From positions 2,852,001-2,916,000 of the forward strand of contig NZ_CP013650.1 of NCBI RefSeq assembly GCF_001466725.1: 64,000 nt of DNA, given 5' to 3'. Made by a program: the position numbers and the translations under genes. Shown one piece after another: positions 47,508-61,565 of this stretch. A model generated the notes under the pieces. It ran no database searches. It saw nothing but the letters and a program-made list of their open reading frames with translations, and had not been told where the DNA came from. The first letter of the stretch is position 1. Every line of letters begins with the position of its first letter. The DNA comes from Lacimicrobium alkaliphilum. Lineage in GTDB: Bacteria > Pseudomonadota > Gammaproteobacteria > Enterobacterales > Alteromonadaceae.

Positions 47508-48251
47508 TTAAAGCGCCGGCAGGCCCCAGGCGGACTGGTGCTTTTTGTATACCTCACCCGGCAGCAACACCATGGCGGGGTCTTCATCGGCATCCAGCCA
47601 GCGGATTAACTCATCCATCACCTCGCCCGGCATCGCAGTGCAGCCAGCGGTGGGTTTATCATCACCGCGCCAAAGATGTAAAAAGATACAGCTACCGGCT
47701 CCGGGCACATTCTGTGGATTATGAGCGACAAAAACGCCCTGACGATATAGCTCATCGCCATAATGCAGATCCCGGCGCATGCCCTCAGAGGATCCTTCTA
47801 CCGCCTCTTCGCCGACGATACTGGCATCCACGATCTGGTTGTAATAGGCAGATTCATTAACATCCATACAGTAATGGCTGCCCTGCATCTGCTGGTAAGG
47901 AATCTCCAGCCCGGAAATCGCCTCATAACCAAAACCACTGGTAAGGGCGAAAATACCAGCCGGAGCTTTGCCATCACCCTCTTTTTTCTGCAGCCCCGAC
48001 TGTGCAGGGTGCAAGCCGATACCCCAGGCCGAACCAGTACGACCAATGGTTACAGCGGAACTGAGTGACTGAGCCTGCCAGCCATTTTCAGTGCGCACAT
48101 AAGTACGCAACTGTCCCTGAATCCCATCCCAATCATCAGTGGTCACGACCACCAGTTGCTTAACATTCTCAGGCAGTTGCCAGTTTGCCTGCGCAGGTGC
48201 AACAGCAACTGCCAGTAACCCCAGCGACACTTTCAGTAATGCGTTCAACAT
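47508..48251 (-). CDS. L,D-transpeptidase (YkuD) family protein
   Basis: A 247-aa periplasmic protein with a signal peptide (about 1-22). The YkuD-type active site is seen as SCIFLHLWRGDDKPTAGCTA, with His192 and Cys204. Members cross-link or trim peptidoglycan stem peptides, including L,D-carboxypeptidase activity. An AAGGATTAAT ribosome site precedes the ATG. It shares a 120-nt divergent promoter with alr, within a cluster for peptidoglycan breakdown. Confidence 0.85.
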   Translation of the reverse strand: MLNALLKVSLGLLAVAVAPAQANWQLPENVKQLVVVTTDDWDGIQGQLRTYVRTENGWQAQSLSSAVTIGRTGSAWGIGLHPAQSGLQKKEGDGKAPAGIFALTSGFGYEAISGLEIPYQQMQGSHYCMDVNESAYYNQIVDASIVGEEAVEGSSEGMRRDLHYGDELYRQGVFVAHNPQNVPGAGSCIFLHLWRGDDKPTAGCTAMPGEVMDELIRWLDADEDPAMVLLPGEVYKKHQSAWGLPAL

Positions 48252-48277
48252 ATTAATCCTTATCAGATTAGTGAATA

Positions 48278-48341
48278 ATAGAATAAGCCAACAAAGAATA
48301 ATCTATTATAGAATAACAAAAATATAGTAAATTAATATTCC
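48278..48341. promoter_or_regulatory. AT-rich operator region between the YkuD gene and alr
   Basis: Two copies of ATAGAATA at 48278-48285 and 48308-48315, and ATATTCC at 48335-48341. The second copy lies in TATTATAGAATA, which is 10/12 palindromic. The same 8-mer recurs at 50374, 56419 and 61662. Proposed regulator is the RpiR protein at 49538; this is inference. Confidence 0.45.
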
Positions 48342-48371
48342 AAGCAAGTTTTACCGGAGTTCCTCTCATAT

Positions 48372-49457
48372 ATGATGTACAGGCCAAGCTACGCCGAAAT
48401 TAACCTTGGCGTTATTCGCGATAATTACCGTCTGAGTAGTCAGTTGGCTCCGGGTTCCCGGCACCTGGCTGTAATTAAGGCCAACGCCTATGGCCATGGT
48501 GCCGAACAGGTTGCAAAGACGCTGGAAGATATTGCACCGGCCTTTGCCGTAGCCTTTACTGACGAGGCCCTGTCATTACGCAAAGCCGGTATCCGCGCCC
48601 CTATATTGATTCTGGAGGGATGTTTTGGTTCACAGGAGCTGACCATTGCCGCAAAGAATAACTTCTGGGTAATGCTGCATAGCACTGAGCAGGTTGGGAT
48701 GCTGGAAAAGACACACTTGCCCTCTCCCGTTCATTGCTGGCTTAAAATAGACACCGGCATGCATCGTCTGGGAATTGATCCGCTGCAGGTCACCGCAATA
48801 CTGCAACGACTGCAAAGCTCCGGTAAGCTGAGCCATAAACCGGTGCTGGCCAGCCATATGGCTAACGCTGAAGAGATAAGCTGCCCCGTTAATCAAAAAC
48901 AGATTGAACAGTTAAAACTGCTTGGCCAGAGTACTGACCATCCCCTCAGTCTGGCGAATAGTGCTGCGCTGATGCAGCTCCCCGACAGCCATAGTGACTG
49001 GAACCGGCCCGGTATAATGCTCTATGGCTGCTCTCCGCTAACCGAAAAATCTGAACAAATTGGACTGAGACCAGCCATGGCAGTATATAGCCAAATCATG
49101 GCCATTCGCGAATTGCAAAAGGGAGATGCGGTTGGTTATGGCGGCCATTGGAGAGCTGACCAGCCAGGCCGTATCGCTACCCTGGCGATTGGCTATGGAG
49201 ATGGCTATCCACGCAGCACCGACAGCCAATGTGAGGTGTTTCTGCATGGCCAACGGGCCCGGGTAATCGGCAGTGTCTCTATGGATATGCTGGGGGTGGA
49301 TATCAGCCATCTGCCGCAGGCTAAAGTAGGCGACAAAGTGGAAATCTGGGGTAAAAATTTACCGATCACAGAACTGGCGAGCAGGGTAAACACCTTAAGT
49401 TATGAATTACTGACCCGGGTTAATCAGCGCCTGCCAAGACAGTTTATTGAGGAGTGA
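48372..49457 (+). CDS. alr: Alanine racemase
   Basis: PLP-dependent interconversion of L- and D-alanine; 361 aa. The PLP lysine is Lys36 in LAVIKANAYGHGAEQ and the second-base tyrosine region is AIGYGDGYPR. VSMDMLGVDISHL and ELLTRVNQR match the C-terminal barrel. Here it would turn D-Ala released from peptidoglycan into usable L-Ala. Its 3' end runs into a GAGGAGT tandem repeat that includes the TGA stop. Confidence 0.96.
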   Translation: MMYRPSYAEINLGVIRDNYRLSSQLAPGSRHLAVIKANAYGHGAEQVAKTLEDIAPAFAVAFTDEALSLRKAGIRAPILILEGCFGSQELTIAAKNNFWVMLHSTEQVGMLEKTHLPSPVHCWLKIDTGMHRLGIDPLQVTAILQRLQSSGKLSHKPVLASHMANAEEISCPVNQKQIEQLKLLGQSTDHPLSLANSAALMQLPDSHSDWNRPGIMLYGCSPLTEKSEQIGLRPAMAVYSQIMAIRELQKGDAVGYGGHWRADQPGRIATLAIGYGDGYPRSTDSQCEVFLHGQRARVIGSVSMDMLGVDISHLPQAKVGDKVEIWGKNLPITELASRVNTLSYELLTRVNQRLPRQFIEE

Positions 49458-49527
49458 GGAGTGAGGAGTGAGGAGTGAAATTTTAACTCAGACATTTGAT
49501 TTGTCGCCATTTTTCCTCACTCCTCAC
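49449..49527. repeat. GAGGAGT tandem repeat with inverted copy
   Basis: Four exact GAGGAGT units (49449-49476) and an inverted copy TCCTCACTCCTCAC (49514-49527) can form a long hairpin between convergent alr and the RpiR gene. Related GAGTGAGGAGG sequence is at about 13629-13642. Confidence 0.75.
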
Positions 49528-49537
49528 GCCTAACCCT

Positions 49538-50332
49538 TCACTCATTATCCTGCGCGCGCTGCAGGGCAATAATCAGCATATCCATCAGGTAAGAGAGGTT
49601 AATCGCCTGGGGGGGAAGCAATAACTGAGGTACCTGGGTGTCTACCAGCATCTGCAGGGTAATGTCGCCCATGCTCGGAAGTTTGGTATCACCGTACTTG
49701 CAGATACAGATAATCTTGTTACGGTGACTGCGATTCAGGCGAATCAGTTCCTGCAGATGTTCATCGCAGTCTTCCAGACTGATAATCACCAGCACTTTAT
49801 CTTCCACCACCTGATCCGCGAGCAACAAATCCAGCCGGTAATCCGCCACATGCTGAACCTGTTTACCCAACTGACACAGGCCCTGAGCCAGACGGGTTGC
49901 AGGATACAGCCCTTCGCCCAGGCCCTGCAGCTGAACCCATTTGGCTTCTGCCAATACACTGACGGCATGAACAAAGGCGTCTGAGGCTTCCACCTCGGCC
50001 AGATACTCTATTGTTTTAGCCGATTCCTCGCGGATAAAGTCGGTAATAGACTCTTTGTTCTGTTGTCTGGACAGAGGGCCATTACTGGTATTCAGCCCAA
50101 TCCCCCGCGCCAGACTTTCATTCACTGCCAGCTTTAAATCCGGATAGCCACGGTAACCCATTTTCTGACTGAATTTGACCACACTGGACTGACTGACTCC
50201 CACCGCACTGGCGAGCTGCTGGGAAGAATAGTCCCTGAGCAAATGGGTATTATCCAGAATAAAATCAGCCAGCTTCTTCTCACTGGAAGAAAGATTGTCA
50301 CGCATGGCTTTCATTTTCAGTAAACAGGTCAA
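49538..50332 (-). CDS. MurR/RpiR-family transcriptional regulator
   Basis: A 264-aa regulator. HTH_6 DNA-binding domain is at about 1-77 (SSSEKKLADFILDN, GVSQSSVVKFSQKMGYRGYP). The C-terminal SIS domain is at about 120-255. The usual phosphosugar-binding serines are not where expected: the GxGxS position reads GLGEG and the SxSGxT-like loop reads ISLEDCDEH. The start is a TTG with AGGGA 7 nt upstream; this keeps the CLLKMKAMRD segment that aligns with family N-termini (ATG 50314 is the alternative). In related loci RpiR proteins control MurNAc and amino-sugar use. Likely local regulator. Confidence 0.9.
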   Translation of the reverse strand: MTCLLKMKAMRDNLSSSEKKLADFILDNTHLLRDYSSQQLASAVGVSQSSVVKFSQKMGYRGYPDLKLAVNESLARGIGLNTSNGPLSRQQNKESITDFIREESAKTIEYLAEVEASDAFVHAVSVLAEAKWVQLQGLGEGLYPATRLAQGLCQLGKQVQHVADYRLDLLLADQVVEDKVLVIISLEDCDEHLQELIRLNRSHRNKIICICKYGDTKLPSMGDITLQMLVDTQVPQLLLPPQAINLSYLMDMLIIALQRAQDNE

Positions 50333-50373
50333 AGGCTTTCCCTACGTTTGCGTTCTTATTATTGTTAATCTGC

Positions 50374-50381
50374 ATAGAATA
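50374..50381. promoter_or_regulatory. ATAGAATA site upstream of the RpiR gene
   Basis: One copy of the shared 8-mer, 42 nt upstream of the regulator's start, consistent with autoregulation. Confidence 0.35.
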
Positions 50382-50434
50382 CCGCTTTTTATCTCTTAGT
50401 CATCCCTGCAAGACAAATTCGACCCGAAAAGCTG

Positions 50435-52912
50435 TCAACGAGAAAGTACCGCTTCATAAATCAGCGAAATAATGCTGCCATAACGGCCAAGCTCAAATTC
50501 ATCGCCTTTAAAACCATACAAGTCCTCTTCAAGGTCCACTACAGGCGTATGGCGGCGATTGGTCAAAAGCACAATGGCCAGATCATACTCCGGGTCCACC
50601 ACTGTCACCGTGCCCGTCCAGCCGGTATGGCCGATCGCCTGAGGGCTGGCATAGGGGCCGAAATGCCAGCGGCGTTCACCATTGCCCGCCCGGCGCCAGC
50701 CAAGTCCCAGTGTAATATCCATATCCGAGGCTTTGCTGAACTGATCCAGCACAGAGGGGGCAAAAACCTGCTGCTCACCGTAGCCACCGCGATTCAGCAG
50801 CACCTGAGTGAGCACGGCCATATCACTGGCATCAGAGAATAATCCTGCGTGACCGGCTACGCCTTGCATTGCGTAATAGGCCTTTTCATCATGCACTTCA
50901 CCCTGCAACACATAATCTCGGATGTTGTCAAAACTGACCCGACCGCCGCGGCTGTTGCCACGAATCTCGGTAGCCGCAAACTGACTTTTAACAAAGCCCT
51001 TTCTGAGCGGATTAAACTTGGTATTATGCAGCCCCAGTGGTTCATAAATCTGCGATTCCACATACTGATCCAGGCTCATATTGGTCAGCCGCTCTACTAA
51101 CACTCCCAGTAGTAAAAAGCCGGTATCGCTGTAAACGGGCTTAATGCCACGGCCGATTTCCAGTGGTACTTCGTGAAGCAATAATTCCACTGTTCTGGCT
51201 TTGTTCTGAGAGAAGAAGGCTTCTCCAAATTTGTTATCCCTTTCGAAAAAGCGCACTTCCGGCCCGTAACCTGCAGTATGGGTCAGCAAATCCTTAACCC
51301 GGATCGCAGCTCTGCCCTGGCCCTTAAATTCCGGGATATGCCTGGATACCTTGTCGTTAAAACTCAGCTTACCCTCTGTCATCAGCTTCATCAGCGCGAA
51401 GTTAGTGGCAAACATTTTGGTATTGGAGGCCATATCAAACAGGGTGTCTTTGCTCATCGCCTGCGGCTTTGGCAGCAATCCGCCGTTATCGTCATATAAC
51501 CGCTTATAGCCGTAGGCAGAATGTTTGATTACCTGCCCATCTTTGACTACCAGCAACACAGCCCCGGGGTAGCCCTGTTCGATCTCTGAATTAATCAGAC
51601 TATCCAGCGCAGAAAAATCATATTTTTCACCCTCAGATGGCTGCAGTACCGGGTAAGGGATCCTGACACGAACACTGGCACCCTCAGGCTGAACGTTTTC
51701 GACGCGCAAATGATTAGTTCCGTCCCGGGTGCGCCGCGCCAGGGAATAACGGTATTGCGCATCAGGCGCAAAAGGCTGCTGTATATTAAGCTGCTCACCG
51801 TTAACATAAATTTCTGCAAATTCGGCGTCCTGGCTGTCGATGATGATCTCGCCCTCGCCTGCATAAGCCTTAAACGCCTTTCGATCATTCACCAGCTTGC
51901 GCTCACTGGGTTCCGGCTCAGGGAACAGGCTGTCCACCTGCCCCAGTGGTTCTGCAAATTCAGCCTCCGGTTCGGCTATTTGTTCTTTGTTGTAGCGCTC
52001 CATTAATGACGTGAGTCGTTCAGGGAAATACTTATCAATCAGGGCAAACAAGGTAGCTGCGGTTTTATCCGAGGCCTCACCACTGACATGCCAGGGCAAA
52101 AAGTGCATCTGAAAGGCAGACAGAGTATCCAGTGTCTGTGCATCCATACGACCCGTTTCTTCAATACCATATCCGTAGGTTCTCAGTGCTGCCTGTACTA
52201 AACCTAATGAAGGTGGGGCCTTGGTAAATTGCTGCCAGTAATGGTTGACTGTTTCATTGTCATACCAGGCACCAATCCCCTCTTTATAGAGTTGATACCA
52301 GGGGAATCTGGGGCCAGGATCGTTTTTACGGCTGGGGGTAATATCCGAGTGGCCCACCACCTGGGTCGGGCCGATATCGGGATGACGCTCAAGAATCGCT
52401 TTTGACAGCTTCACCAACAATGCGATTTGCTCAGGGTCATAGTCAGGGAAAATACACAGCCTTCCGTCACCGTGCTCATTGCCATTAAAGGGATCGCTGA
52501 AATGGTGACCCATCTCGCGCTCACACTCAGGCACATTGACGATTTCGATGCCGATCGACTGATCGTTGAGGTCATTACGCCCCTGCCAGTAACTGCTGCC
52601 GGCATGCCAGGCCCGGTGCTGCTCATCGACCAGTTGCAATACTTTTAGTTCATCGTCGGGGTAACTGTCATCGAAGCGCTCAGGAATCAGATAATGGGAG
52701 CTGACATAAGGCCCTTTCACCAGGGCATTCACCGATCTCTGATAGTCAATGGCGGTAAAATGCATCACCAGAAACTGCACTCTGTGGTTGTAGGATTTTG
52801 AAGGCATCTGCTCGATAGGCAGACTGGTGCAGCCAACCAGTAGTGTCAGCAACAGAATATTTACTAAAACAAAAGGACGTAACAGGAAAAAAAACACAGG
52901 CTCTAATTTCAT
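50435..52912 (-). CDS. Amidase-PG-binding-serine hydrolase fusion lipoprotein (AmpD plus PBP4B/beta-lactamase-like)
   Basis: An 825-aa lipoprotein (lipobox LLVGC, Cys28). Domains in order: AmpD-like zinc amidase (about 40-215; zinc ligands His51 in VMHFTA and His188 in VGHSDITPSRKNDPG), a PG_binding_1-like helix bundle (about 235-300, RMDAQTLDTLSAFQM), a linker and small beta domain (about 345-420), then a class C beta-lactamase/PBP-type serine hydrolase (about 430-825) with SNTK (Ser496-Lys499), YSDTG and HTGWTG. It would remove the stem peptide from MurNAc and act on D-Ala ends. Related to proteins annotated as PBP4B/YfeW with an added amidase. ATG 52912 follows TGAGGTTG. Confidence 0.88.
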   Translation of the reverse strand: MKLEPVFFFLLRPFVLVNILLLTLLVGCTSLPIEQMPSKSYNHRVQFLVMHFTAIDYQRSVNALVKGPYVSSHYLIPERFDDSYPDDELKVLQLVDEQHRAWHAGSSYWQGRNDLNDQSIGIEIVNVPECEREMGHHFSDPFNGNEHGDGRLCIFPDYDPEQIALLVKLSKAILERHPDIGPTQVVGHSDITPSRKNDPGPRFPWYQLYKEGIGAWYDNETVNHYWQQFTKAPPSLGLVQAALRTYGYGIEETGRMDAQTLDTLSAFQMHFLPWHVSGEASDKTAATLFALIDKYFPERLTSLMERYNKEQIAEPEAEFAEPLGQVDSLFPEPEPSERKLVNDRKAFKAYAGEGEIIIDSQDAEFAEIYVNGEQLNIQQPFAPDAQYRYSLARRTRDGTNHLRVENVQPEGASVRVRIPYPVLQPSEGEKYDFSALDSLINSEIEQGYPGAVLLVVKDGQVIKHSAYGYKRLYDDNGGLLPKPQAMSKDTLFDMASNTKMFATNFALMKLMTEGKLSFNDKVSRHIPEFKGQGRAAIRVKDLLTHTAGYGPEVRFFERDNKFGEAFFSQNKARTVELLLHEVPLEIGRGIKPVYSDTGFLLLGVLVERLTNMSLDQYVESQIYEPLGLHNTKFNPLRKGFVKSQFAATEIRGNSRGGRVSFDNIRDYVLQGEVHDEKAYYAMQGVAGHAGLFSDASDMAVLTQVLLNRGGYGEQQVFAPSVLDQFSKASDMDITLGLGWRRAGNGERRWHFGPYASPQAIGHTGWTGTVTVVDPEYDLAIVLLTNRRHTPVVDLEEDLYGFKGDEFELGRYGSIISLIYEAVLSR

Positions 52913-52969
52913 CAACCTCAGTATCCGAATTATCTAATTATCTGGGAAAAGCACTCTTTAACCTAATAT

Positions 52970-52998
52970 AAAAAATCCCCGCACGAATGCAGGGATTA
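52970..52998 (-). terminator. Terminator of the TonB-dependent receptor gene
   Basis: AATCCC (52974-52979) pairs with GGGATT (52992-52997), with inner GCA/TGC. An A-run to the left gives a U-tract on the minus strand. It separates the receptor from the amidase-fusion gene downstream. Confidence 0.7.
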
Positions 52999-53071
52999 AA
53001 AAGGCAACTCCTCTATTGCGGAGTAAAACCTGATGGCAGTCCATTGCCTACACAACACCACATGTTGATGC

Positions 53072-56065
53072 TCAGAACTCAACCGCCACTGACAATTGCA
53101 GTCTGCGCGGATTGTAGAAATTACGTGATTCGCCAAAATTCTCCGAAGTCACAAAAGGATTCGGATTATAGCCGGTCTGGCGGTCAAACACGTTAAACAA
53201 ATCGGCCCGGAACTGCGCTGTGAACGTATCTGTCAGACGGACGTCCTGAGTATAGTTCAAGTCCAATTGCCAGTGGCTGGCCGTGCGACGACTACCCGCC
53301 GGTTCGCCATAGCGACTGGTAGACGACACTGTACTTGCATAACCATAATAGGTCGCATCCCAGGCTTCCCATGGATGACCGGACTGATACACCAGATAGG
53401 CACCAATATTGGCATTCCAGTCTGTGGTGTAGTAACCAAAGGCCTTAAACAGATGCGGTTTGTCGCCTCTGAGCTTACCGTAACGGTTATCCCAGGGCAG
53501 ACGACCCGGGCCGTCACCGTAGAAAGACGAGCCGATAAAGGTATTGGCATCATTAGTGGTAGTGGTATTGTCCTGGTCAAAGTTACCGTAGTAATGGCTC
53601 CAGACGTACGAGGCATTCAGGTAGGTACGATCACCCTGCCATTCCGCTTCCAAACTGAGTTCCCAGTATTTGGTTTCACCACCATCCACTTCGGCAATCA
53701 CATAACTTGAACCACTTATTTCATCGCGGATTGCATCCAGATTATCCACATACAAGCCTTTGGCTGCTATATGGTCGGGTACAGAACTGTTGCCGTAAGT
53801 ACCGTATAAACGGGCATTATTTGGCATATCTTCCCAGAAATTGGTGCCTTTACGATGACGGGCATGAGCCCGTAAGAAGAGATTATTCGATACTGCTTTG
53901 GTAGTACCTATAGTAATCTCATCGATACGCCGGGGCTCAAGATCATCGGCAAAGACCTTACCGGATGAACCGCCTCTTGGCTCGGAATCGATATAATTAC
54001 CGTCTTCATCGAAATAAACATCCAGTTGTGCCAGTGCCGATCTGTCCCAAGATGCGGCCCGGGCCAAGGAGCTGGCCTCGGGGTTATAGCTGGCAAAGTT
54101 AGCAAATACGGTGTTACCCGCTTCGTATTCCCAGCTTACGCCCAGTCTTGGCTGGATCATATCCTGCCAGTCCACCGTATACATCTTGTATTTATGACCC
54201 GGCGCCTGCTCGTAACCCGAAACTGTACCGGACTTGGGACGTAGGCCCTGACCGTAGAGTTCATCCTGACTGATCAGTACACCCACATTAAAGGTAAAGT
54301 CCTGATACTCAATGGTGTCATTAATCTCTAGGTTATAGGCCTTGGCCGAGGAGCTGATAGACGGTACCGCAACATCAACGCCACTACCAAAGCTGACCCG
54401 CTCGGTAATACTGCGATAATATATAGGTGTACCATCCGGCGCCTCTTCCAGCCCGCCGATATATTCAAAAGAGCCCCAACCATTGGAGAAACGACTCAGA
54501 TCTTCTTCAATTTCTGAGTACTTAAAGCCCACATGCAAGTTATGAAAGGCATTGCCGATCTCAAATTCATGATCCAGTGCCAGTTCAAAGGTATCTCTGT
54601 AGAAATCCTGATTATTGAACTGGAAGTAACCACCGACACCGCCGCCACCAGCAGGATTACCGTCATCACCGATATAACCATACTGGTTAATCAAAGCTTG
54701 CGCACCCGCATTAAAACCAGGCTCATCATCCCTTAGCGAAGGAACATTGAAGTAACCCATCTGGTCGAGATTGGCCAGATCCAGCGAACCACCTATGGTA
54801 GGTGTTACACTGAGCTGATTATCCGGCGCATCGCCTCCAACCAGCTCAAAAGTGTTATAGCTGAAACTCAGAGTCGTGAAATCGTCAATCAGCCAGGAAC
54901 CATCAATGGTGAAAATATCCTGTTCTGATGTTCCCCCAACTGAAACGCTGTCAGTTTCGAATTCGCCGATCGAATTTCCTTCAATAGTTCTGTCAGAAGT
55001 ACGCAGACTGGCATTAAACAGCAGGTCATCGGTGGGTGCCCAGGTCAATTTACCAAAATATTCATCGCGCACATTACGATAATCTTTGGCCGGCCCATAG
55101 CGGGTTTCCGTATTCGCGCCTTCTTCTTCCGGGCGGTAATAGGATACATAGAAGAACAGTTCATCTTCAATCAACGGGCCACCCAGGTTGGCGGTGATCC
55201 AGCTCTCGTCAGTTTCACGAATTACACCAACATCCGGCGTACTTCCGAAATTGGCGTTTTGTAACTTGTATTCCACCCGGCCCTTAAACTCGTTGGTACC
55301 GGACTTAGACGTGGTATTAATCGAAAAACCACCTGAGCGGTTAAAGCCCACAGCTTTGGCGCCACCGCGGTCCATCGATACATTCGCCACATCATGGGTG
55401 GATGGCTCAGAGGCCAGGTTACCAAACAGCGGCAGTGAAACATCCACACCATCAAAGCCATATTTATTGTCCTGACCGGAACCGCCAGCTGACGGACCAC
55501 GTGTAGAATTCTGAGAAAATTCCACACCAGGCACCAGTTTTAAAAGGTCACGATAATCCTGCCCTACTGGTACGCCAGTAACCACATCATCCCCTAATGA
55601 ATTGGTCAGGGACGAGTCCCCCTGACGCACAATCAGGCTGCCGGTGATGGTAATCACTTCGGTATCGGCCACGGAAGGATCACGAGCCTGCAGCGGAACG
55701 GTAATATTGGCGGTCTGATCCAATAATACCCGGACATTCATCGTACTCCGGGTGCCATCTTCCGCAGTAAAAGTCAGTTCATAATTACCCGGTAACAATG
55801 CCGGTAAATCAAAGCTACCGTCAGCCTTGGTAGTAGTAGAACGTGGTCTAGGCATCGCATCACCGCGAGCGGTGACGGTTACACCGGCAACGGCATCACC
55901 GGTTACCTTGCCCGTAATACCACTGGTTTGTTGGGCTACGGCAGGAGCCACGATCATCGAGCTCGCTAACACAGCAGCCGATACTGTTGTAACGGGCGCG
56001 CTGAGTGCGCCACGCATTGCCATTACAATGCGCTTTTTAGCAAAAGCTATATCTTTGAGTTTCAT
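53072..56065 (-). CDS. TonB-dependent receptor (CarboxypepD-regulatory/Oar-like)
   Basis: Outer-membrane active transporter of 997 aa. A long signal peptide ends near AVAQQ (about 45). A carboxypeptidase-regulatory-like beta-sandwich follows (about 48-125, SGITGKVTGDAVAGVTVTAR, LPALLPGNYELTF), then a plug (about 135-265, with DYRDLLKLVPGVEF) and a large barrel ending in RRLQLSVAVEF. Oar-type receptors import bulky substrates such as oligosaccharides or peptides. Its place in this gene cluster suggests muropeptides, but the sequence itself does not show the substrate. Confidence 0.94.
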   Translation of the reverse strand: MKLKDIAFAKKRIVMAMRGALSAPVTTVSAAVLASSMIVAPAVAQQTSGITGKVTGDAVAGVTVTARGDAMPRPRSTTTKADGSFDLPALLPGNYELTFTAEDGTRSTMNVRVLLDQTANITVPLQARDPSVADTEVITITGSLIVRQGDSSLTNSLGDDVVTGVPVGQDYRDLLKLVPGVEFSQNSTRGPSAGGSGQDNKYGFDGVDVSLPLFGNLASEPSTHDVANVSMDRGGAKAVGFNRSGGFSINTTSKSGTNEFKGRVEYKLQNANFGSTPDVGVIRETDESWITANLGGPLIEDELFFYVSYYRPEEEGANTETRYGPAKDYRNVRDEYFGKLTWAPTDDLLFNASLRTSDRTIEGNSIGEFETDSVSVGGTSEQDIFTIDGSWLIDDFTTLSFSYNTFELVGGDAPDNQLSVTPTIGGSLDLANLDQMGYFNVPSLRDDEPGFNAGAQALINQYGYIGDDGNPAGGGGVGGYFQFNNQDFYRDTFELALDHEFEIGNAFHNLHVGFKYSEIEEDLSRFSNGWGSFEYIGGLEEAPDGTPIYYRSITERVSFGSGVDVAVPSISSSAKAYNLEINDTIEYQDFTFNVGVLISQDELYGQGLRPKSGTVSGYEQAPGHKYKMYTVDWQDMIQPRLGVSWEYEAGNTVFANFASYNPEASSLARAASWDRSALAQLDVYFDEDGNYIDSEPRGGSSGKVFADDLEPRRIDEITIGTTKAVSNNLFLRAHARHRKGTNFWEDMPNNARLYGTYGNSSVPDHIAAKGLYVDNLDAIRDEISGSSYVIAEVDGGETKYWELSLEAEWQGDRTYLNASYVWSHYYGNFDQDNTTTTNDANTFIGSSFYGDGPGRLPWDNRYGKLRGDKPHLFKAFGYYTTDWNANIGAYLVYQSGHPWEAWDATYYGYASTVSSTSRYGEPAGSRRTASHWQLDLNYTQDVRLTDTFTAQFRADLFNVFDRQTGYNPNPFVTSENFGESRNFYNPRRLQLSVAVEF

Positions 56066-56682
56066 AGTTTTCGGTATCCCTGGATCAGTTTTGCTTACTT
56101 TTAGTTCAACACTTGTGAGTTTGTTTTGTTGCTGGCTTTTTAGCCAGTCATTACTAAACCTATCACTCTTTTAGCCAAAAGAAAATATTTTATTCCTTAA
56201 TCATAAAAGCAAAGGAATAAGCTCTTCATATTTCCCCTGTTGAACAGGTTCCAATCCATCGTCCTCTGCTATCAACCTGCCAACTGCTAACGCTCATAAC
56301 AACCGACACTTAATCCCTTATCCTGACTAGCCTTAGCATAGGTTTTCAGCACCCTCTTTCAGGCTATGTCTAACAGAAGTGTAGCAGTTATCCGCAATAT
56401 TGTATTAGCTAAAAATTCATAGAATAATAATTTATTATTGATTTAATGTTGATATGCAATAATATTCCTTCATACTTTTTAAACCCTGATGTCGTGAGCC
56501 GATGTCACTCAGAGCTGCCTGTACAACAAGGGCTGGATAAATGAGTTTACAGCCACAGGACTTTAACTAAGGTCGGGCGCGGATAAATAGCTGCCAGGAC
56601 TCACTGAGCCTGTTGGCAATTGATATACTGGTGTTTGCCCTACATGGTCAACAACCCGAAATTTCACTTAACAAGAGTCATA
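56066..56682. promoter_or_regulatory. Divergent control region of receptor and NlpC/P60 genes
   Basis: A 617-nt gap. ATAGAATA at 56419-56426 lies in ATTCATAGAAT (ATTC/GAAT half-sites) and runs into AATAATAATTTATTATT (inverted repeat AATAATAA/TTATTATT). ATATTCC is at about 56461-56467. Nearer the receptor, TTATTCCTT and AAGGAATAA (about 56190-56221) form another inverted repeat. These are operator candidates. Confidence 0.45.
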
Positions 56683-58062
56683 ATGAAATTATCGTCTTTA
56701 CTGCTTATCACCACGACATTGTTGTTATCAGGCTGGCCAAACGCCCTGTCAGCCATGATTACGGATGTACCGGAAATCTCTGCCCGGCATCTTGATGCCC
56801 AATACTGGATTGATAAAACAGACCACGCCGATACCCCTTTGCTGACACCAAAAGCAATAGAACATCTCAATCAGAATACCTTCAAACAGCAGAGTGAGCT
56901 GGTTCAATTAGCTGAGTTGCCGGCACAATACGCCAAATCGCAGTTGCTTGAGATGATCAACAAGGTCAGTTCAGTGCCGGCCTATGAGCGCTTTTTTGCA
57001 GATGGCCGCCAACTTAGCGAGAAAGACTATACCCGCTATCGGAATAATATGAATCTGGACGGATTAAAGCAGAGTAATACCCTTCGTTATGCTCTGGTCA
57101 CCAACCGCACCACCATGCGCCGATTCCCCTCACATGACAAAGCCTATAATGCTGAAATGGATCCGGACATCGACCGCTTTATCGAAACCGGTCTGTTTCC
57201 CGGCGATGCGTTGGCCGTTTTGCATCAGAGCAAAGACGGCAAGTGGTTATTGGCTCAGGCCTATCACTACCTGGCCTGGATTCCGGCTGAGGATGTCGCC
57301 ATTGGCAGCAAAGCGCAAGTGCTTGGCTTTCGCCAGACAGAATCGTTTGTGGTGGTAACAGGTGCTAAAGTGTTCACTAACTACAACCCCGAGCTGCCAC
57401 AACTTTCCGAAAAGCAACTGGATATGGGTGTGCGTTTACCCTTACTCGACAACCATCAGGTTGACCACAGTCTCTACGGCCAGAACCCCTATACCAGCTA
57501 TGTAGTCAGTCTGCCTTATCGTGAAGATGATGGCAGCCTGAGTATAAAACCGGCACTCATCAGCAAAAATCAGGATATCAGCACAGGTTATCTGCCCTTT
57601 ACCCGCGAGAATATTATTCGTCAGGGTTTTAAATTTCTCGGTGAACGTTATGGCTGGGGTCATGACTATAATGCCCGCGACTGTACCGGATTTGTTTCTG
57701 AGGTATACAGGACCTTTGGTATATTGATGCCAAGAAATTCGGGCCAGCAAGGCAAAGGCCAGTATGGAATTAATCAGCACTTTGATGCTAATGCCGCTGA
57801 ACAGGATAAGTTAGCCGCAATTACGAATATGGATGTTGGCGATCTTGCCTATATTCCCGGCCACGTGGTGATGTATTTAGGGAACGACAATGGAAAGCCC
57901 TATGTTATCCATGATGTGCATGGCATGTCTTATCTGGATAAAGATGAAAATTACTACAAGGGCATACTCAATGGCGTGTCCGTTACTCCGCTTTTACCCA
58001 TGCGCTTGTCGGAATCAAGCAGCTATGTGGATAAAATTTACACTATCAAGTCTATTCGCTAA
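56683..58062 (+). CDS. SH3-NlpC/P60 endopeptidase (YkfC-like)
   Basis: A 459-aa secreted protein from ATG 56683 (signal MKLSSLLLITTTLLLSG); the longer frame upstream lacks a signal. N-terminal helical part, two SH3b-like domains (about 125-270; TNRTTMRRFPS, YHYLAWIPAEDVAI) and a C-terminal NlpC/P60 domain (about 305-440) with Cys334 in NARDCTGFVSE, His394 in IPGHVVMYLG and His410 in VIHDVHG. The layout matches Bacillus YkfC, which cuts gamma-D-Glu-diamino acid bonds in peptides starting with L-Ala. The epimerase gene follows after 9 nt, as ykfB pairs with ykfC. Confidence 0.9.
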   Translation: MKLSSLLLITTTLLLSGWPNALSAMITDVPEISARHLDAQYWIDKTDHADTPLLTPKAIEHLNQNTFKQQSELVQLAELPAQYAKSQLLEMINKVSSVPAYERFFADGRQLSEKDYTRYRNNMNLDGLKQSNTLRYALVTNRTTMRRFPSHDKAYNAEMDPDIDRFIETGLFPGDALAVLHQSKDGKWLLAQAYHYLAWIPAEDVAIGSKAQVLGFRQTESFVVVTGAKVFTNYNPELPQLSEKQLDMGVRLPLLDNHQVDHSLYGQNPYTSYVVSLPYREDDGSLSIKPALISKNQDISTGYLPFTRENIIRQGFKFLGERYGWGHDYNARDCTGFVSEVYRTFGILMPRNSGQQGKGQYGINQHFDANAAEQDKLAAITNMDVGDLAYIPGHVVMYLGNDNGKPYVIHDVHGMSYLDKDENYYKGILNGVSVTPLLPMRLSESSSYVDKIYTIKSIR

Positions 58063-58071
58063 GGGAATCAG

Positions 58072-59166
58072 ATGAAAATCACCGATATAAAATTCGCCAT
58101 GCTCAGAGTGCCGCTTAATACGCCATTTAAGACGGCCCTGCGCACGGTAGACAGCATAGAAGACGTGGTGGTCATAATCGAAACAGACACCGGCCATATC
58201 GGCTATGGAGAGGCGCCGGCGACGGCTGTGATTACCGGTGATACCCATGGCTCCATTATTGAAGCCATTAAAACCATGATTAAACCCAAGCTGATTGGTG
58301 AGGAGATTGAAAACCTTAATCGCATCACGCATCTGATCCAGGGTTCGATTGTTAAAAATTACAGTGCCAAGGCAGCCGTAGAAATTGCCGTTTACGATCT
58401 CTTTGCACAGCTCTACAAGGCCCCCCTGTATAAAATACTCGGTGGCGGTGAGCCAACCCTCAGTACCGACATTACCATCAGTGTCGACTACATAGACAAA
58501 ATGGTGCAGGACAGCATAGAGGCAGTCAACAAGGGTTTCGAGACCCTGAAAATCAAAGTCGGTAAAGACATAGGCGTCGATATCGAACGGGTTAAAGCCA
58601 TTTATGCGGCAGTAGAAGGCAAAGCCCTGTTACGGCTGGATGCCAATCAGGGCTGGACGGCTAAAGAAGCCGTTTATGCCCTGACCCGTCTCGAAGACGC
58701 CGGTGTGCGTCTGGAACTGGTTGAACAACCGGTTAAAGGCCATGATCTCGAAGGCATGAAATACATTACCGAGCGGGTACATACCCCAGTGATGGCTGAT
58801 GAGAGCACCTTCGGCCCTAAAGAAGTTATTGAGCTTATTCGCATGCGGGCCGCCGACATTATCAATATCAAGCTGATGAAAACCGGCGGCATCAGTAACG
58901 CCATTCGTATCGCCGATATCGCCGAAACCTATGATATTCAGTGTATGATTGGCTGCATGCTGGAAACCAGCATCAGCGTCAGTGCGGCAGTGCATCTGGC
59001 CGTTGCCAAATCCCATGTGATCACCAAAGTGGATCTGGATGGCCCATCCTTATGTGCCTTTGACCCGGTAACAGGCAGCGTTAAATTTAAGGGTTCAGAT
59101 ATCATTATCGAAGATAAGCCAGGGATAGGTATCGAGAGCATCAAAGGGCTGGAGATGCTGGAGTAA
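58072..59166 (+). CDS. Dipeptide epimerase (L-Ala-D/L-Glu type, enolase superfamily)
   Basis: Turns L-Ala-D-Glu from cell-wall peptide into L-Ala-L-Glu; 364 aa. All family landmarks are visible: catalytic KIK (Lys160/Lys162), metal ligands Asp190 (LLRLDANQGW), Glu218 (ELVEQP) and Asp243 (VMADES), second catalytic Lys267 (NIKLMKTGG), and the DxD pair Asp321/Asp323 (VDLDGPS) that binds the dipeptide amino group. AAGGGAATCAG precedes the ATG. Same operon as the NlpC/P60 gene. Confidence 0.93.
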   Translation: MKITDIKFAMLRVPLNTPFKTALRTVDSIEDVVVIIETDTGHIGYGEAPATAVITGDTHGSIIEAIKTMIKPKLIGEEIENLNRITHLIQGSIVKNYSAKAAVEIAVYDLFAQLYKAPLYKILGGGEPTLSTDITISVDYIDKMVQDSIEAVNKGFETLKIKVGKDIGVDIERVKAIYAAVEGKALLRLDANQGWTAKEAVYALTRLEDAGVRLELVEQPVKGHDLEGMKYITERVHTPVMADESTFGPKEVIELIRMRAADIINIKLMKTGGISNAIRIADIAETYDIQCMIGCMLETSISVSAAVHLAVAKSHVITKVDLDGPSLCAFDPVTGSVKFKGSDIIIEDKPGIGIESIKGLEMLE

Positions 59167-59496
59167 GAAATTGGGTAGCCCGTCAAGTAGCGAAGCGGAT
59201 TGCGGGAGCAAAACCTGGATTCCGCTTCGCTGAATCCAGACTACACAGACTCATGCCGACACCTTGTTAACCAAACTCTTTGTCAGTTATTCCTTCTTTC
59301 CGGCCACCGAGCCGGAATCTTTATATCGCGGCCGAGGTGGAAAAGTTTAACTGACACTGCTGACTGAAAGAGATCCTGAGGCGAGCTCAGGATGACGGTA
59401 CCGTTTCTTCACGCAAATGCGCAGAGACGTAGAGGAATAAATGGAGTTCTCAACCAGAATCCTCTGCGACTTAAGGCCCTGCGAGAGCCCCTGCAT
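59167..59496. repeat. Intergenic region with dispersed repeats
   Basis: No gene seen. 59173-59244 is a second copy of the GTAGCCCG...AGCGAAGCGGA / TCCGCTTCGCT hairpin element seen at 47124-47190. GCGCAGAGACGTAGAGG and CCTCTGCGACTTA (59411-59475) belong to the CTCTGCG family. Confidence 0.6.
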
Positions 59497-60174
59497 TTAT
59501 TTCACCGGGAAATCAAAGTAGGTATCGGGGTAAGGCTGGGGCACTAAGGAGTAATGCCACCATTCCATTGCATAGTTGCTGAACCCTGCGCTTTCCATTA
59601 ACTCTTTCAATAGTTGCCGGTTAGCCGCCTGCTCAGCACTGATAGTCGGATTCGCCGTATTTGACAACGGATCAAACATATCGAAAGGCGAGGCCATATC
59701 CAGCTCCTGCCAGTTGCCTTCACTATCCTGTCTGGCCAGAGTCAGATCCACCGTGGCACCACGGCTGTGACCGGAGCGCTCGGCAATGTACTCCCCTACC
59801 AGTTTATCTTTAGGTAAATTAGGATAGTAATCGGCTTTGGTATGGATGTCGGATAAGTCCTGCGCCCAACGCATAAAATGAGCCACAGAACGCTGAGGCC
59901 GGTAGCAATCAAATATTTTCAGCTTCAGCCCCTGCTCGGAGGCTTTTGTCGCGACCTCCTGTAGTGCCTTAGCGGCCTGTTGCTGCAGAATACACTTTGG
60001 CTCAAGGTAGCCCTCTACCGGCTCACCGACAAAGTTGTTGTCGGTATAGTAGCGAATATCGTAGATGGCATCAGGCAGCGCCTGGTTCATTTCCACAAAA
60101 TCTTCAGGCATGGGCCCGGCAGCCAAAGGCATTACTGCGATCAGGGCCAAGCCGGTAACATACTTTTTCATCAT
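59497..60174 (-). CDS. Periplasmic D-Ala-D-Ala dipeptidase (VanX/DdpX family)
   Basis: Zinc dipeptidase of 225 aa with a signal peptide (about 1-19), so it acts in the periplasm. Zinc and catalytic residues are His136 and Asp143 (SGHSRGATVD), Glu204 and His207 (EWWHYS). The substrate-binding Arg region FDCYRPQRS is also present. A DdpX-like role in using cell-wall D-Ala-D-Ala as nutrient fits better than vancomycin resistance, since no vanHA genes are present. ATG overlaps the stop of the upstream transporter (ATGA). Confidence 0.93.
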   Translation of the reverse strand: MMKKYVTGLALIAVMPLAAGPMPEDFVEMNQALPDAIYDIRYYTDNNFVGEPVEGYLEPKCILQQQAAKALQEVATKASEQGLKLKIFDCYRPQRSVAHFMRWAQDLSDIHTKADYYPNLPKDKLVGEYIAERSGHSRGATVDLTLARQDSEGNWQELDMASPFDMFDPLSNTANPTISAEQAANRQLLKELMESAGFSNYAMEWWHYSLVPQPYPDTYFDFPVK

Positions 60175-61565
60175 ACACCTATCCAGAACATGCCCACCAG
60201 AATATAGGCCACCAAAGTCAGGCCGCCACTGAACAGGGCATAAGGTAACTGAGTTTTAACATGCTCGAGTAAGTCACAACCGGAGGCCAGACTACTCACC
60301 GCAGTGGTATCGGAAATGGGTGAACAGTGGTCGCCAAATACGCCACCGCCAAGAATCGCCGCCATCACCAGCGACGGGGGTAAACCGAGATTGAGCACCA
60401 TTGGCATACCAATCGGAATCAGGATGGCAAAGGTGCCCCAGGAGGTACCTGTGGTAAAAGAAATCAGGGCACCGGCCAGAAACAACAAAGCCGGAATAAT
60501 AAACAGTGGCAATGATTCGGCGACAATGCCGGAAATAAAGTCTCCGGTTCCTAACACCCGCAAGCTACCGCCAAGTGCCAGTGAAAATAACAGTATTGCC
60601 ACCAGCGGCAGCAGTTCACTCATGCCCTCAAAGCCGACTTTGACCAGCTCTTTATGCTCAAAGCGCTTTGAACCTATCATCATCACGTAAGCTAACATGC
60701 AGGCCAGTGTGGTGGCATAGAGTACTGATTTGGAGCCATCACCATCGGTCAGATTGCCATTACCAGTCCAGTACATAAAACCGAGCATACCGACAACCAT
60801 TGTCATCAATGGCAATACCATATAGCGGGCTTTGGACGCCTTATAGTCAATTTCGGTATGATTGGCAGATTTGCTCAATACCCGCTCAGACTCTTTCATC
60901 GGCCCGAATACCTTACCGGTAATAATAGTGAACAGCACGATGGCCAGAGTGATCAGCGCATAGAAATTCAGCGCAATGGTGCCGACCAGAATCGACACCG
61001 CGCTTTGTTCAGTCGGATAGGTTCCCAACAGGCCCAGCACATAGGCGCCCCAGCCATTGAGCAAAATCAGGATACAAATAGGTGCGCTGGTACTGTCAAT
61101 CACATAGGCCAGACGGGCGCGACTCATTTTAAACTTGTCATACAGACCACGGGACAAAATGCCTGCTGTCAGTACGCTCAGATTAGACTCGATGAAGACC
61201 ACCACGCCGGTGAAAAAAGACAGCAGTCCCACCTGGCGCTGATTTTTGGCGACACCTTTGTTGATCATTTTTTCTACCAGCGCCGTCACCCCGCCAGAGT
61301 GCCTCATATAGGCCAGCAATGCCCCTACCATCAGTGAAAATACCAGCAGACGACTGTTACCTGGCGAGCTCAGCACCGAAATAATGCGCTCTACCGTCTG
61401 AAACGGACTTTGTAACACGGAGGAGGCAAACCCGGTCTGCCCCTGCAACATCAGTAATAATTCAGAGCTGAACAGGGCCACGAGTAACGCGAGGATGACT
61501 TCTTTGCGCCAGAAGACAACGATAATGGCCAGAGCGGGGGGAAGGAGCGTTAACCAATCAGACAA
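60171..61565 (-). CDS. NhaC-family Na+/H+ antiporter-like transporter
   Basis: A 464-aa integral membrane protein with about 11-12 helices, of the NhaC/ion-transporter superfamily (signature-like LGGGVFGDHCSPISDTTAVS and SFTTGTSWGTFAILIPIGM). Members exchange Na+ for H+ or organic substrates. Its coupling to the D-Ala-D-Ala dipeptidase makes a sodium-linked amino-acid or dipeptide role possible, but this is inference. Confidence 0.9.
   Translation of the reverse strand: MSDWLTLLPPALAIIVVFWRKEVILALLVALFSSELLLMLQGQTGFASSVLQSPFQTVERIISVLSSPGNSRLLVFSLMVGALLAYMRHSGGVTALVEKMINKGVAKNQRQVGLLSFFTGVVVFIESNLSVLTAGILSRGLYDKFKMSRARLAYVIDSTSAPICILILLNGWGAYVLGLLGTYPTEQSAVSILVGTIALNFYALITLAIVLFTIITGKVFGPMKESERVLSKSANHTEIDYKASKARYMVLPLMTMVVGMLGFMYWTGNGNLTDGDGSKSVLYATTLACMLAYVMMIGSKRFEHKELVKVGFEGMSELLPLVAILLFSLALGGSLRVLGTGDFISGIVAESLPLFIIPALLFLAGALISFTTGTSWGTFAILIPIGMPMVLNLGLPPSLVMAAILGGGVFGDHCSPISDTTAVSSLASGCDLLEHVKTQLPYALFSGGLTLVAYILVGMFWIGV

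Follow-up and report, generated by a model that had tools for sequence, protein, structure and literature searches.

A locus of Lacimicrobium alkaliphilum read as the peptide arm of a receptor-linked regulon for peptidoglycan-fragment catabolism

The window analysed here is the 64 kb stretch at positions 2852001-2916000 of the single 4.38 Mb contig of Lacimicrobium alkaliphilum, and our subject is a set of nine genes at positions 47508-61565 of this window (Table 1). An earlier sequence-only reading had assigned these genes to nine families and proposed that they form a muropeptide utilisation locus. All nine open reading frames (ORFs) are open at the coordinates of Table 1, and the ORF check together with profile matches bore out all nine families. 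The proposed role gained support from conserved linkage and a shared operator, with the amendment that the window holds the peptide arm only. We consider it likely that the locus is the peptide arm of a receptor-linked regulon for peptidoglycan-fragment catabolism, a reading based on gene content, conserved linkage, catalytic residues and the shared operator.

Table 1 Genes and predicted operators of the locus. Export signals were judged by eye from the sequence (YkuD, fusion, NlpC and VanX, yes; epimerase, no).
Feature	Position in window	Strand	Evidence
YkuD-fold exported protein, possible L,D-carboxypeptidase or transpeptidase	47508..48251	-	PF03734; Cys in AGCTAM
Predicted RpiR-type operator between ykuD and alr	48292..48312	.	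Held-out matrix score 13.1
Alanine racemase Alr	48372..49457	+	TIGR00492
RpiR-family regulator, MurR paralogue, recognition helix intact, SIS degenerate	49538..50332	-	HTH_6, tree, motif counts
Lipoprotein fusion: AmpDh/AmiD-type Zn amidase, PG_binding_1 (weak) and PBP4B (YfeW) serine hydrolase	50435..52915	-	NF002968, AmpDh3 (4bxd), lipobox C28
Oar-like outer-membrane TonB-dependent receptor	53072..56065	-	CarboxypepD_reg, OMP_b-brl_4
Predicted RpiR-type operator, receptor/NlpC divergent promoter region	56179..56199	.	Held-out score 16.4
Second predicted operator, receptor/NlpC intergenic region	56421..56441	.	Held-out score 15.7
Exported SH3b1-NlpC/P60 protein, YkfC-like, putative gamma-D-Glu-meso-diaminopimelate endopeptidase	56620..58062	+	PF12913, PF00877
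L-Ala-D/L-Glu (dipeptide) epimerase, YkfB-like, without export signal	58072..59166	+	1jpm/1tkk alignment
Exported VanX-type D-Ala-D-Ala dipeptidase (M15)	59497..60174	-	PF01427, 1r44
NhaC-family transporter of the inner membrane, candidate for the import of stem peptide or D-Ala	60171..61565	-	PF03553

The lipoprotein had been described as an amidase-serine hydrolase fusion; both parts are present, and the serine-hydrolase half can now be named PBP4B. The protein scores 503.8 bits against the PBP4B equivalog NF002968 (cut-off 385) and contains the SxxK/YSD/HTG motifs of PBP4B (YfeW). Its Amidase_2 domain scores 78.8 bits, and the structures nearest to the amidase in sequence are AmpDh3 (4bxd, 201.7 bits), AmpDh2 (150.9 bits) and AmiD (149.7 bits), while the PG_binding_1 match is weak (22.4 bits, under the cut-off of 23). 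Numbered without counting the TTG start, the zinc ligands H51, H188 and D198, the S496xxK499 motif and the lipobox cysteine C28 are invariant across 14 aligned relatives. The nearest protein relatives of the fusion are those of Lacimicrobium alkaliphilum, with 86% identity, and Lacimicrobium sp. SS2-24, with 81%. A structure model from 14 sequences had a mean predicted local distance difference test (pLDDT) score of 66, with the amidase half mostly below 50, so that only the serine-hydrolase half is usable; this half shows the class C beta-lactamase/esterase fold (best matches 6kjp, 6kjh and 7u1b), and the model does not tell a carboxypeptidase from an amidase. A second PBP4B-like serine hydrolase, without an amidase, is encoded at genome positions 4365465-4366589 (L145:5369-6712) and is 40% identical to the C-terminal half of the fusion.

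The nlpC and epimerase genes are adjacent on one strand, and the comparison with Bacillus ykfC-ykfB made in the sequence-only reading holds: an SH3b-NlpC/P60 protein and an epimerase are both present with their catalytic residues. The NlpC protein carries SH3_6, SH3b1 (PF12913) and NLPC_P60 (PF00877) domains, and its best PDB match is 3m1u, a putative gamma-D-glutamyl-L-diamino acid endopeptidase (74.6 bits), with which the Cys/His/His residues align; its start is more likely the ATG at 56683 than the listed TTG, judging from the sequence. The epimerase matches the MR_MLE N and C domains and aligns over nearly its full length with the Bacillus subtilis L-Ala-D/L-Glu epimerase 1jpm/1tkk (344.8 bits), including the catalytic residues and the DxD pair (KxK, DAN, EQP, ADES, IKLMK and DxD). 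Alignment thus confirmed the visible catalytic residues in the fusion, the epimerase and the NlpC/P60 protein.

The epimerase lies under its curated NCBIfam equivalog cut-off (263.1 vs 500), as does the dipeptidase under its own (204.7 vs 320); the latter matches Peptidase_M15 (PF01427) with 147.4 bits and aligns to VanX 1r44 with 160 bits. The start of its gene overlaps the end of the NhaC gene, whose product matches Na_H_antiporter (PF03553) with 143.5 bits and has no PDB sequence match. YkuD passes the PF03734 cut-off (27.3 vs 23.4 bits) and has no PDB sequence match up to E 1; Alr reaches 356.5 bits against TIGR00492 (cut-off 168), and the receptor matches CarboxypepD_reg (48.2 bits) and OMP_b-brl_4 (45.3 bits). 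Compared with its L. alkaliphilum counterpart (locus L032), the receptor is only 61% identical, against 96-99% for the epimerase, NhaC and RpiR proteins, so it changes much faster than those neighbours. A DUF885 lipoprotein-like ORF with the motif HEAVPGH (window 45128-46999) follows the locus and was found, among the fetched loci, only in two other Lacimicrobium.

To compare gene neighbourhoods, a profile scan of named genomes yielded 108 relatives of the fusion, and the best 80 loci were used with flanks of up to 10 kb; they come from Lacimicrobium, Bowmanella, Paraglaciecola, Neptunicella, Pseudoalteromonas, Thalassotalea, Colwellia, Alteromonas, Pseudidiomarina, Glaciecola and kin. All ORFs of these loci were clustered into families, each named from one representative. 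Near the fusion, the most frequent families were RpiR (58 of the 80 loci), NamZ (45), NhaC (43, directly after the fusion or close by), MurQ (42) and the receptor (36), followed by a NagZ-type GH3 enzyme (33), an SSS symporter (31), an M14 peptidase (24), the epimerase (21), a BcrAD_BadFG sugar kinase (21), a NagX-like protein (19), NlpC (18), an FAD/Fe-S dehydrogenase (15) and gamma-glutamyltranspeptidase (15). Within the claimed nine-gene set, Alr (15), YkuD (14) and VanX (4) proved to be looser members. These counts are lower bounds since several loci end at contig edges, and gene order and strand vary between genera, so it is the set that is conserved and not the order. Families without an evident link recur as well, for example a glucose/sorbosone dehydrogenase (20/80); adenylosuccinate synthetase and aldehyde dehydrogenase are further examples, chiefly from Alteromonas.

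Three further neighbours were observed in these loci. Another type of TonB-dependent receptor stands with a tryptophan-halogenase-like gene right before the fusion in 12 of the 80 (L068, L071, L073, L075, L078, L082, L084-L087, L101 and L109). The gamma-glutamyltranspeptidase, which might cut gamma-D-Glu bonds, follows the fusion and NhaC in 14 (L065, L070, L072 and others); a fifteenth locus, L038, has it in the vicinity of the fusion. A DUF819 membrane protein, a candidate dipeptide importer, is present in seven (L035-L037, L041, L050, L051 and L067) and adjoins NlpC in five of them.

Linkage was then measured edge to edge in our own genome and 23 others of the 80, picked for genus spread. 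The epimerase (E<=1e-30) is present in 18 of these 24 genomes and always on the contig of the fusion (18/18), within 20 kb in 17 and at 35 kb in the remaining one; thus, in the comparison set beforehand to detect scattering, the homologues were not scattered. MurQ is present in all 24: in 19 genomes its distance to the fusion is at most 20 kb, in one it is 31 kb, and the four genomes where it is split off all belong to Lacimicrobium or Bowmanella. In contrast, the control AnmK, a recycling kinase also present in 24/24, is within 20 kb of the fusion in none (nearest 42 kb). By these counts, the joined fusion-MurQ state is the common one, and the split in Lacimicrobium/Bowmanella looks derived.

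The sequence-only reading was correct that MurQ, NagZ and AmpG are outside the window; all three are elsewhere in the genome, as are AnmK and LdcA. The arm for N-acetylmuramic acid (MurNAc), comprising symporter, kinase, MurQ, NamZ and MurR, lies about 0.75 Mb from the window, at 3.65-3.67 Mb (fetched stretches L139 and L140). Here, symporter, kinase, MurQ and NamZ form a row on one strand, with MurQ as its third gene (3660535-3661407; TIGR00274, 413.8 bits). A divergent GH3 gene lies on one side of the row, whose promoter region carries an operator match, and on the other side a MurR-type regulator is divergent from an FAD/Fe-S oxidase of the D-lactate/glycolate/2-hydroxyglutarate dehydrogenase family. 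Both NamZ and GH3 start with lipoprotein-type export signals. The phosphotransferase system (PTS) protein MurP is not in the row, which has the SSS symporter and BcrAD_BadFG kinase instead; the search for MurP covered the row and not the rest of the genome. The MurQ reaction gives D-lactate as by-product (PMC5061867), which makes a D-lactate dehydrogenase the natural guess for the FAD/Fe-S enzyme, whose substrate the sequence does not fix.

An operon 3' of GH3 encodes five proteins: D-glutamate cyclase, the 5-oxoprolinase proteins PxpA, PxpB and PxpC, and another protein resembling D-glutamate cyclase. In 4 of the 80 loci (L059, L067, L083 and L107), these five genes stand immediately after the fusion. 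D-glutamate cyclase occurs in 11 of the 24 genomes; in six of the 11 it is no more than 25 kb from the fusion or MurQ, and in five it lies on another contig. The idea that it substitutes for the epimerase was ruled out: all 11 genomes with the cyclase have the epimerase, seven have the epimerase alone and six have neither. Also near the distant arm are an adenylate-cyclase class I-like protein, the FAD/Fe-S dehydrogenase and a GH18 protein (L139:7302-9266, L139:10097-12985 and L140:6005-7195); the dehydrogenase shares the operator region of MurR, and the GH18 gene comes after the D-glutamate operon. The kinase and NagX-like neighbours have sub-threshold matches to N-acetylglucosamine (GlcNAc) genes.

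A predicted operator links the two arms. The motif search compared 241 promoter-containing intergenic regions of the locus families with 279 of other genes from the same loci. Enriched words were TGGAATAAT (51 target vs 0 background regions) and ATAAATTAT (82 vs 1), and expectation-maximisation converged on the palindrome ttaagAATAAaTTATTcttaa. In-sample, 141/241 target regions but only 3/279 others score at least 12, and 35 of 36 receptor promoters of relatives score at least 10. For held-out scans, a match was defined as a score of at least 10. A matrix trained without Lacimicrobium and Bowmanella gave exactly three matches in the window (56179, 56421 and 48292), all of them in the locus. 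The same matrix gave three matches in 35 kb of the distant arm, between symporter and GH3 (17.4), before MurR (12.9) and before the D-glutamate cyclase operon (11.3), and none in a 16 kb control stretch. The 16 kb fetched around the second PBP4B-like gene contain no operator match. A matrix built from Pseudoalteromonas only matched 99/180 target regions of other genera vs 8/222 background regions. Per 1000 dinucleotide shuffles, the observed score was reached 0 times for receptor/NlpC, 14 for YkuD/Alr, 0 for symporter/GH3, 3 for MurR and 2 for the D-glutamate operon. The earlier likening of the locus to a polysaccharide-utilisation locus agrees with the finding that the intergenic region between the receptor and the nlpC-epimerase pair has two operator matches. 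The RpiR gene of the window has no scoring operator; receptor, fusion and RpiR genes are co-directional and so could be one operon from the receptor promoter.

The shorter word ATAGAATA occurs seven times in the window, five of them in intergenic regions of the locus (48278, 48308, 50374, 56419 and 61662), an observation made post hoc for which no probability is claimed. It was rejected as the whole regulator site: the learned motif is a longer palindrome, and the copies by RpiR (50374) and NhaC (61662) do not score. The word may also contain a -10-like hexamer, and these two copies may be half-sites or -10 boxes. At the genome level, a pattern scan with at most one mismatch, which misses several of the sites in question, gave 38 oriented matches vs 13 for the reversed control. 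The sequence RRAATAWWTTATTYY has two zero-mismatch places in the genome, one of which overlaps the operator at 56179..56199. Strong operator-like sites were also seen at genome positions 630499 (L182; 17.4), just before an S8 subtilase ORF, and 3699859 (L201; 16.6), between C39-like and LysR/NlpC-P60-like genes; these genes are possible further members of the regulon.

The two RpiR-family regulators differ in their sensory half. In the window protein, the HTH_6 domain scores 83.0 bits while SIS stays under its cut-off (22.9 vs 25); the SIS domain of the distant MurR scores 78.1 bits. A tree built from 63 RpiR rows places the distant Lacimicrobium/Bowmanella MurR proteins with the regulators of joined loci, and the window RpiR in a clade of its own together with six counterparts from Lacimicrobium/Bowmanella. 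On a very long, unreliable branch, this clade also takes in a Thalassotalea protein, which matches none of three sequence patterns. The first of these, in the recognition helix, is found in 53/55 canonical proteins and 7/7 of the window clade, whereas the SIS motifs GxGGS (50/55) and SxSGxT (53/55) are found in 0/7 of that clade. Two of the five canonical proteins without GxGGS, the distant MurR of two other Lacimicrobium, read GVGSS and hence retain the serine. The family assignment of the sequence-only reading stands, and tree and motifs reject the window RpiR as a MurR orthologue. With the helix kept and the SIS motifs lost, this paralogue probably reads the same operator and probably lacks the canonical mode of sugar-phosphate binding.

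On this basis, the regulon would work as follows. The TonB-dependent receptor would bring MurNAc-peptides across the outer membrane, and the fusion, GH3, NamZ, NlpC/P60 and VanX-type enzymes would all cut outside the cytoplasm. There, the fusion amidase would cut MurNAc off the stem peptide and the PBP4B half would either trim D-Ala or serve as a second, AmiE-like amidase, while the YkfC-like NlpC/P60 protein would split L-Ala-D-Glu from diaminopimelate and the VanX-type enzyme would split D-Ala-D-Ala. The symporter would import MurNAc, and the NhaC-type or another carrier the peptide products. Kinase, MurQ, epimerase, Alr and the D-glutamate route would act in the cytoplasm, where the epimerase may yield L-Ala-L-Glu and Alr L-Ala. 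The distant arm would thereby use MurNAc, D-lactate and free D-glutamate through GH3, NamZ, symporter, kinase, MurQ, the FAD/Fe-S dehydrogenase, and D-glutamate cyclase with 5-oxoprolinase. A MurR-type repressor on the ttaagAATAAaTTATTcttaa palindrome would join both arms, with the window RpiR probably as second reader. Transport, the direction of each step, repression, receptor uptake and the external source of the fragments are the parts that we infer.

Several observations weigh against this reading. Its support comes from sequence and comparative genomics, which do not fix the substrate of the receptor. No operator match was found upstream of NhaC-VanX (4.8; reached by 125/1000 shuffles) or of the fusion itself. 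The operator motif is not exclusive, since, of the other places given by the pattern scan, 18 were fetched and four of these score at least 12 (before the subtilase gene, beside the C39/NlpC-like genes, before a release-factor gene and inside an aconitase gene; five listed places were left out), and in the loci of relatives 28 matches of at least 12 lie outside target promoters in 1.56 Mb. The full-length fusion is rare in the order, with 6 of 148 evenly drawn genomes, our own included, against domain matches in 133/148. The fusion occurs without the epimerase in 6 of the 24 genomes, and no receptor homologue was found near it in 44 of the 80 loci, some of which are contig-cut and 12 of which have the other receptor type. 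Finally, the presence of AmpG, AnmK, NagZ and LdcA in the genome means that some of the genes could serve recycling.

This last point leads to the strongest competing explanation, that the genes recycle or remodel the cell's own wall rather than using outside fragments and that the neighbouring receptor imports something else. In other bacteria, AmpDh/AmiD-type amidases, PBP4B, YkuD and Alr are generally known to take part in building or turning over the wall, and the four recycling genes are present in this genome. Those genes sit elsewhere, however: the fetched AmpG and AnmK stretches have no operator match (best score 3.3), LdcA reaches 9.3, just under the threshold of 10, and AnmK is within 20 kb of the fusion in none of the 24 genomes. 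Moreover, the regulon has a receptor in the outer membrane, export signals on NamZ and GH3, a catabolic MurQ and a means of D-glutamate disposal. We therefore regard recycling as unlikely, yet as an explanation to be taken seriously.

It is much less probable that a receptor-led locus for another amino-sugar polymer, e.g. oxidised chitin, has peptidoglycan genes adjacent by chance. The ong cluster indeed also joins a TonB-dependent receptor, SSS, a sugar kinase, a beta-hexosaminidase and a MurR/RpiR regulator (PMC9537276), and the sub-threshold GlcNAc-gene matches noted above would fit such a polymer. Nevertheless, the same set has been retained through rearranged gene orders, and, by what is known of these families, MurQ and NamZ are MurNAc-specific and the epimerase, NlpC/P60 protein and amidase act on the stem peptide. 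That these are housekeeping genes gathered loosely without a shared function, as the low counts of Alr, YkuD and VanX near the fusion might suggest, is highly improbable given that the epimerase linkage (18/18 vs 0/24 for AnmK) and the operator common to both arms contradict it.

With peptidoglycan-fragment catabolism as the preferred reading, a wider proposal can be made, although we hold it tentatively and would not be surprised to see it fail. Alteromonadales may have a dedicated TonB-dependent system for peptidoglycan fragments, in which Lacimicrobium/Bowmanella use two paralogous repressors on one operator code: MurR would sense MurNAc-6-phosphate, and the paralogue without a sugar-phosphate pocket would sense a stem-peptide product (or nothing), so that each half of the wall would be gauged on its own. 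A MurR paralogue with a worn-out sugar pocket poses a concrete puzzle of how RpiR regulators change their signal. Metatranscriptomes of the Mariana Trench point to peptidoglycan as a likely deep-sea microbial nutrient, with MurNAc and D-amino-acid genes active (PMC11044484), and in other organisms MurNAc use has been predicted from MurQ plus GlcNAc genes (PMC5507952). The regulon offers a genomic marker for peptidoglycan feeding, and names the receptor, the two-domain cutting enzyme, the D-glutamate route and the operator as directly testable items. In a search of openly licensed papers, no description of such a locus, or of a complete uptake-and-use gene set, was found for Alteromonadales/Alteromonas-type bacteria, and the word MurR is absent from the main text of a 2016 regulon survey (PMC5343134). 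Recycling in Caulobacter (PMC13046382) and a Rhodothermus GH3/beta-lactamase fusion with a suggested role in peptidoglycan turnover (PMC6987092) are parallels and do not describe this locus.

Each part of the system has known counterparts. The B. subtilis ykfABCD cluster combines a YkfC-type NlpC/P60 protein and a YkfB-type epimerase with LdcA and an ABC peptide transporter; here, the two enzymes are likewise encoded side by side on one strand, but with no LdcA or ABC peptide transporter beside them, and the genes linked with them include a receptor and a MurNAc-type regulator. The ybbC gene of the B. subtilis murQ-murR-murP-amiE-nagZ-ybbC cluster is one that we take to be namZ. On that assumption, the cluster shares with our regulon the GH3 enzyme NagZ, NamZ, MurQ, a regulator and a PF00144-family hydrolase, since the amidase AmiE belongs to this family just as the PBP4B half does (PMC5061867, PMC10653849); PMC5061867 itself calls ybbC a gene of unknown function. 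Unlike that cluster, the present system is Gram-negative and receptor-linked, uses a symporter plus kinase, and has two hydrolase types in one protein. In Escherichia coli, the divergent MurR represses a single operon of murQ, murP and, as the last gene, that of PBP4B (PMC5061867). The murR-murQP-yfeW divergon thus resembles our regulon in bringing a MurR-type regulator, MurQ and PBP4B together. Here, by contrast, one lipoprotein carries both PBP4B and an amidase; a symporter and kinase stand where E. coli has the PTS MurP; receptor, NamZ, GH3, NlpC/P60 and epimerase are added; and the set is split in two loci. The Pseudoalteromonas ong cluster is similar in that receptor, SSS, kinase, hexosaminidase and RpiR repressor make one catabolic set, and differs in its other enzymes, its oxidised chitin substrate and the tested repression by OngR (PMC9537276). 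Tannerella forsythia is a Gram-negative bacterium described as using external muropeptides through an AmpG permease controlled by GppX (PMC5388701); a use of external fragments is what we would also expect here, with other genes. Overall, the present system combines known MurNAc and ykf parts and adds to them the amidase-PBP4B fusion, the D-glutamate route and the paired regulators.

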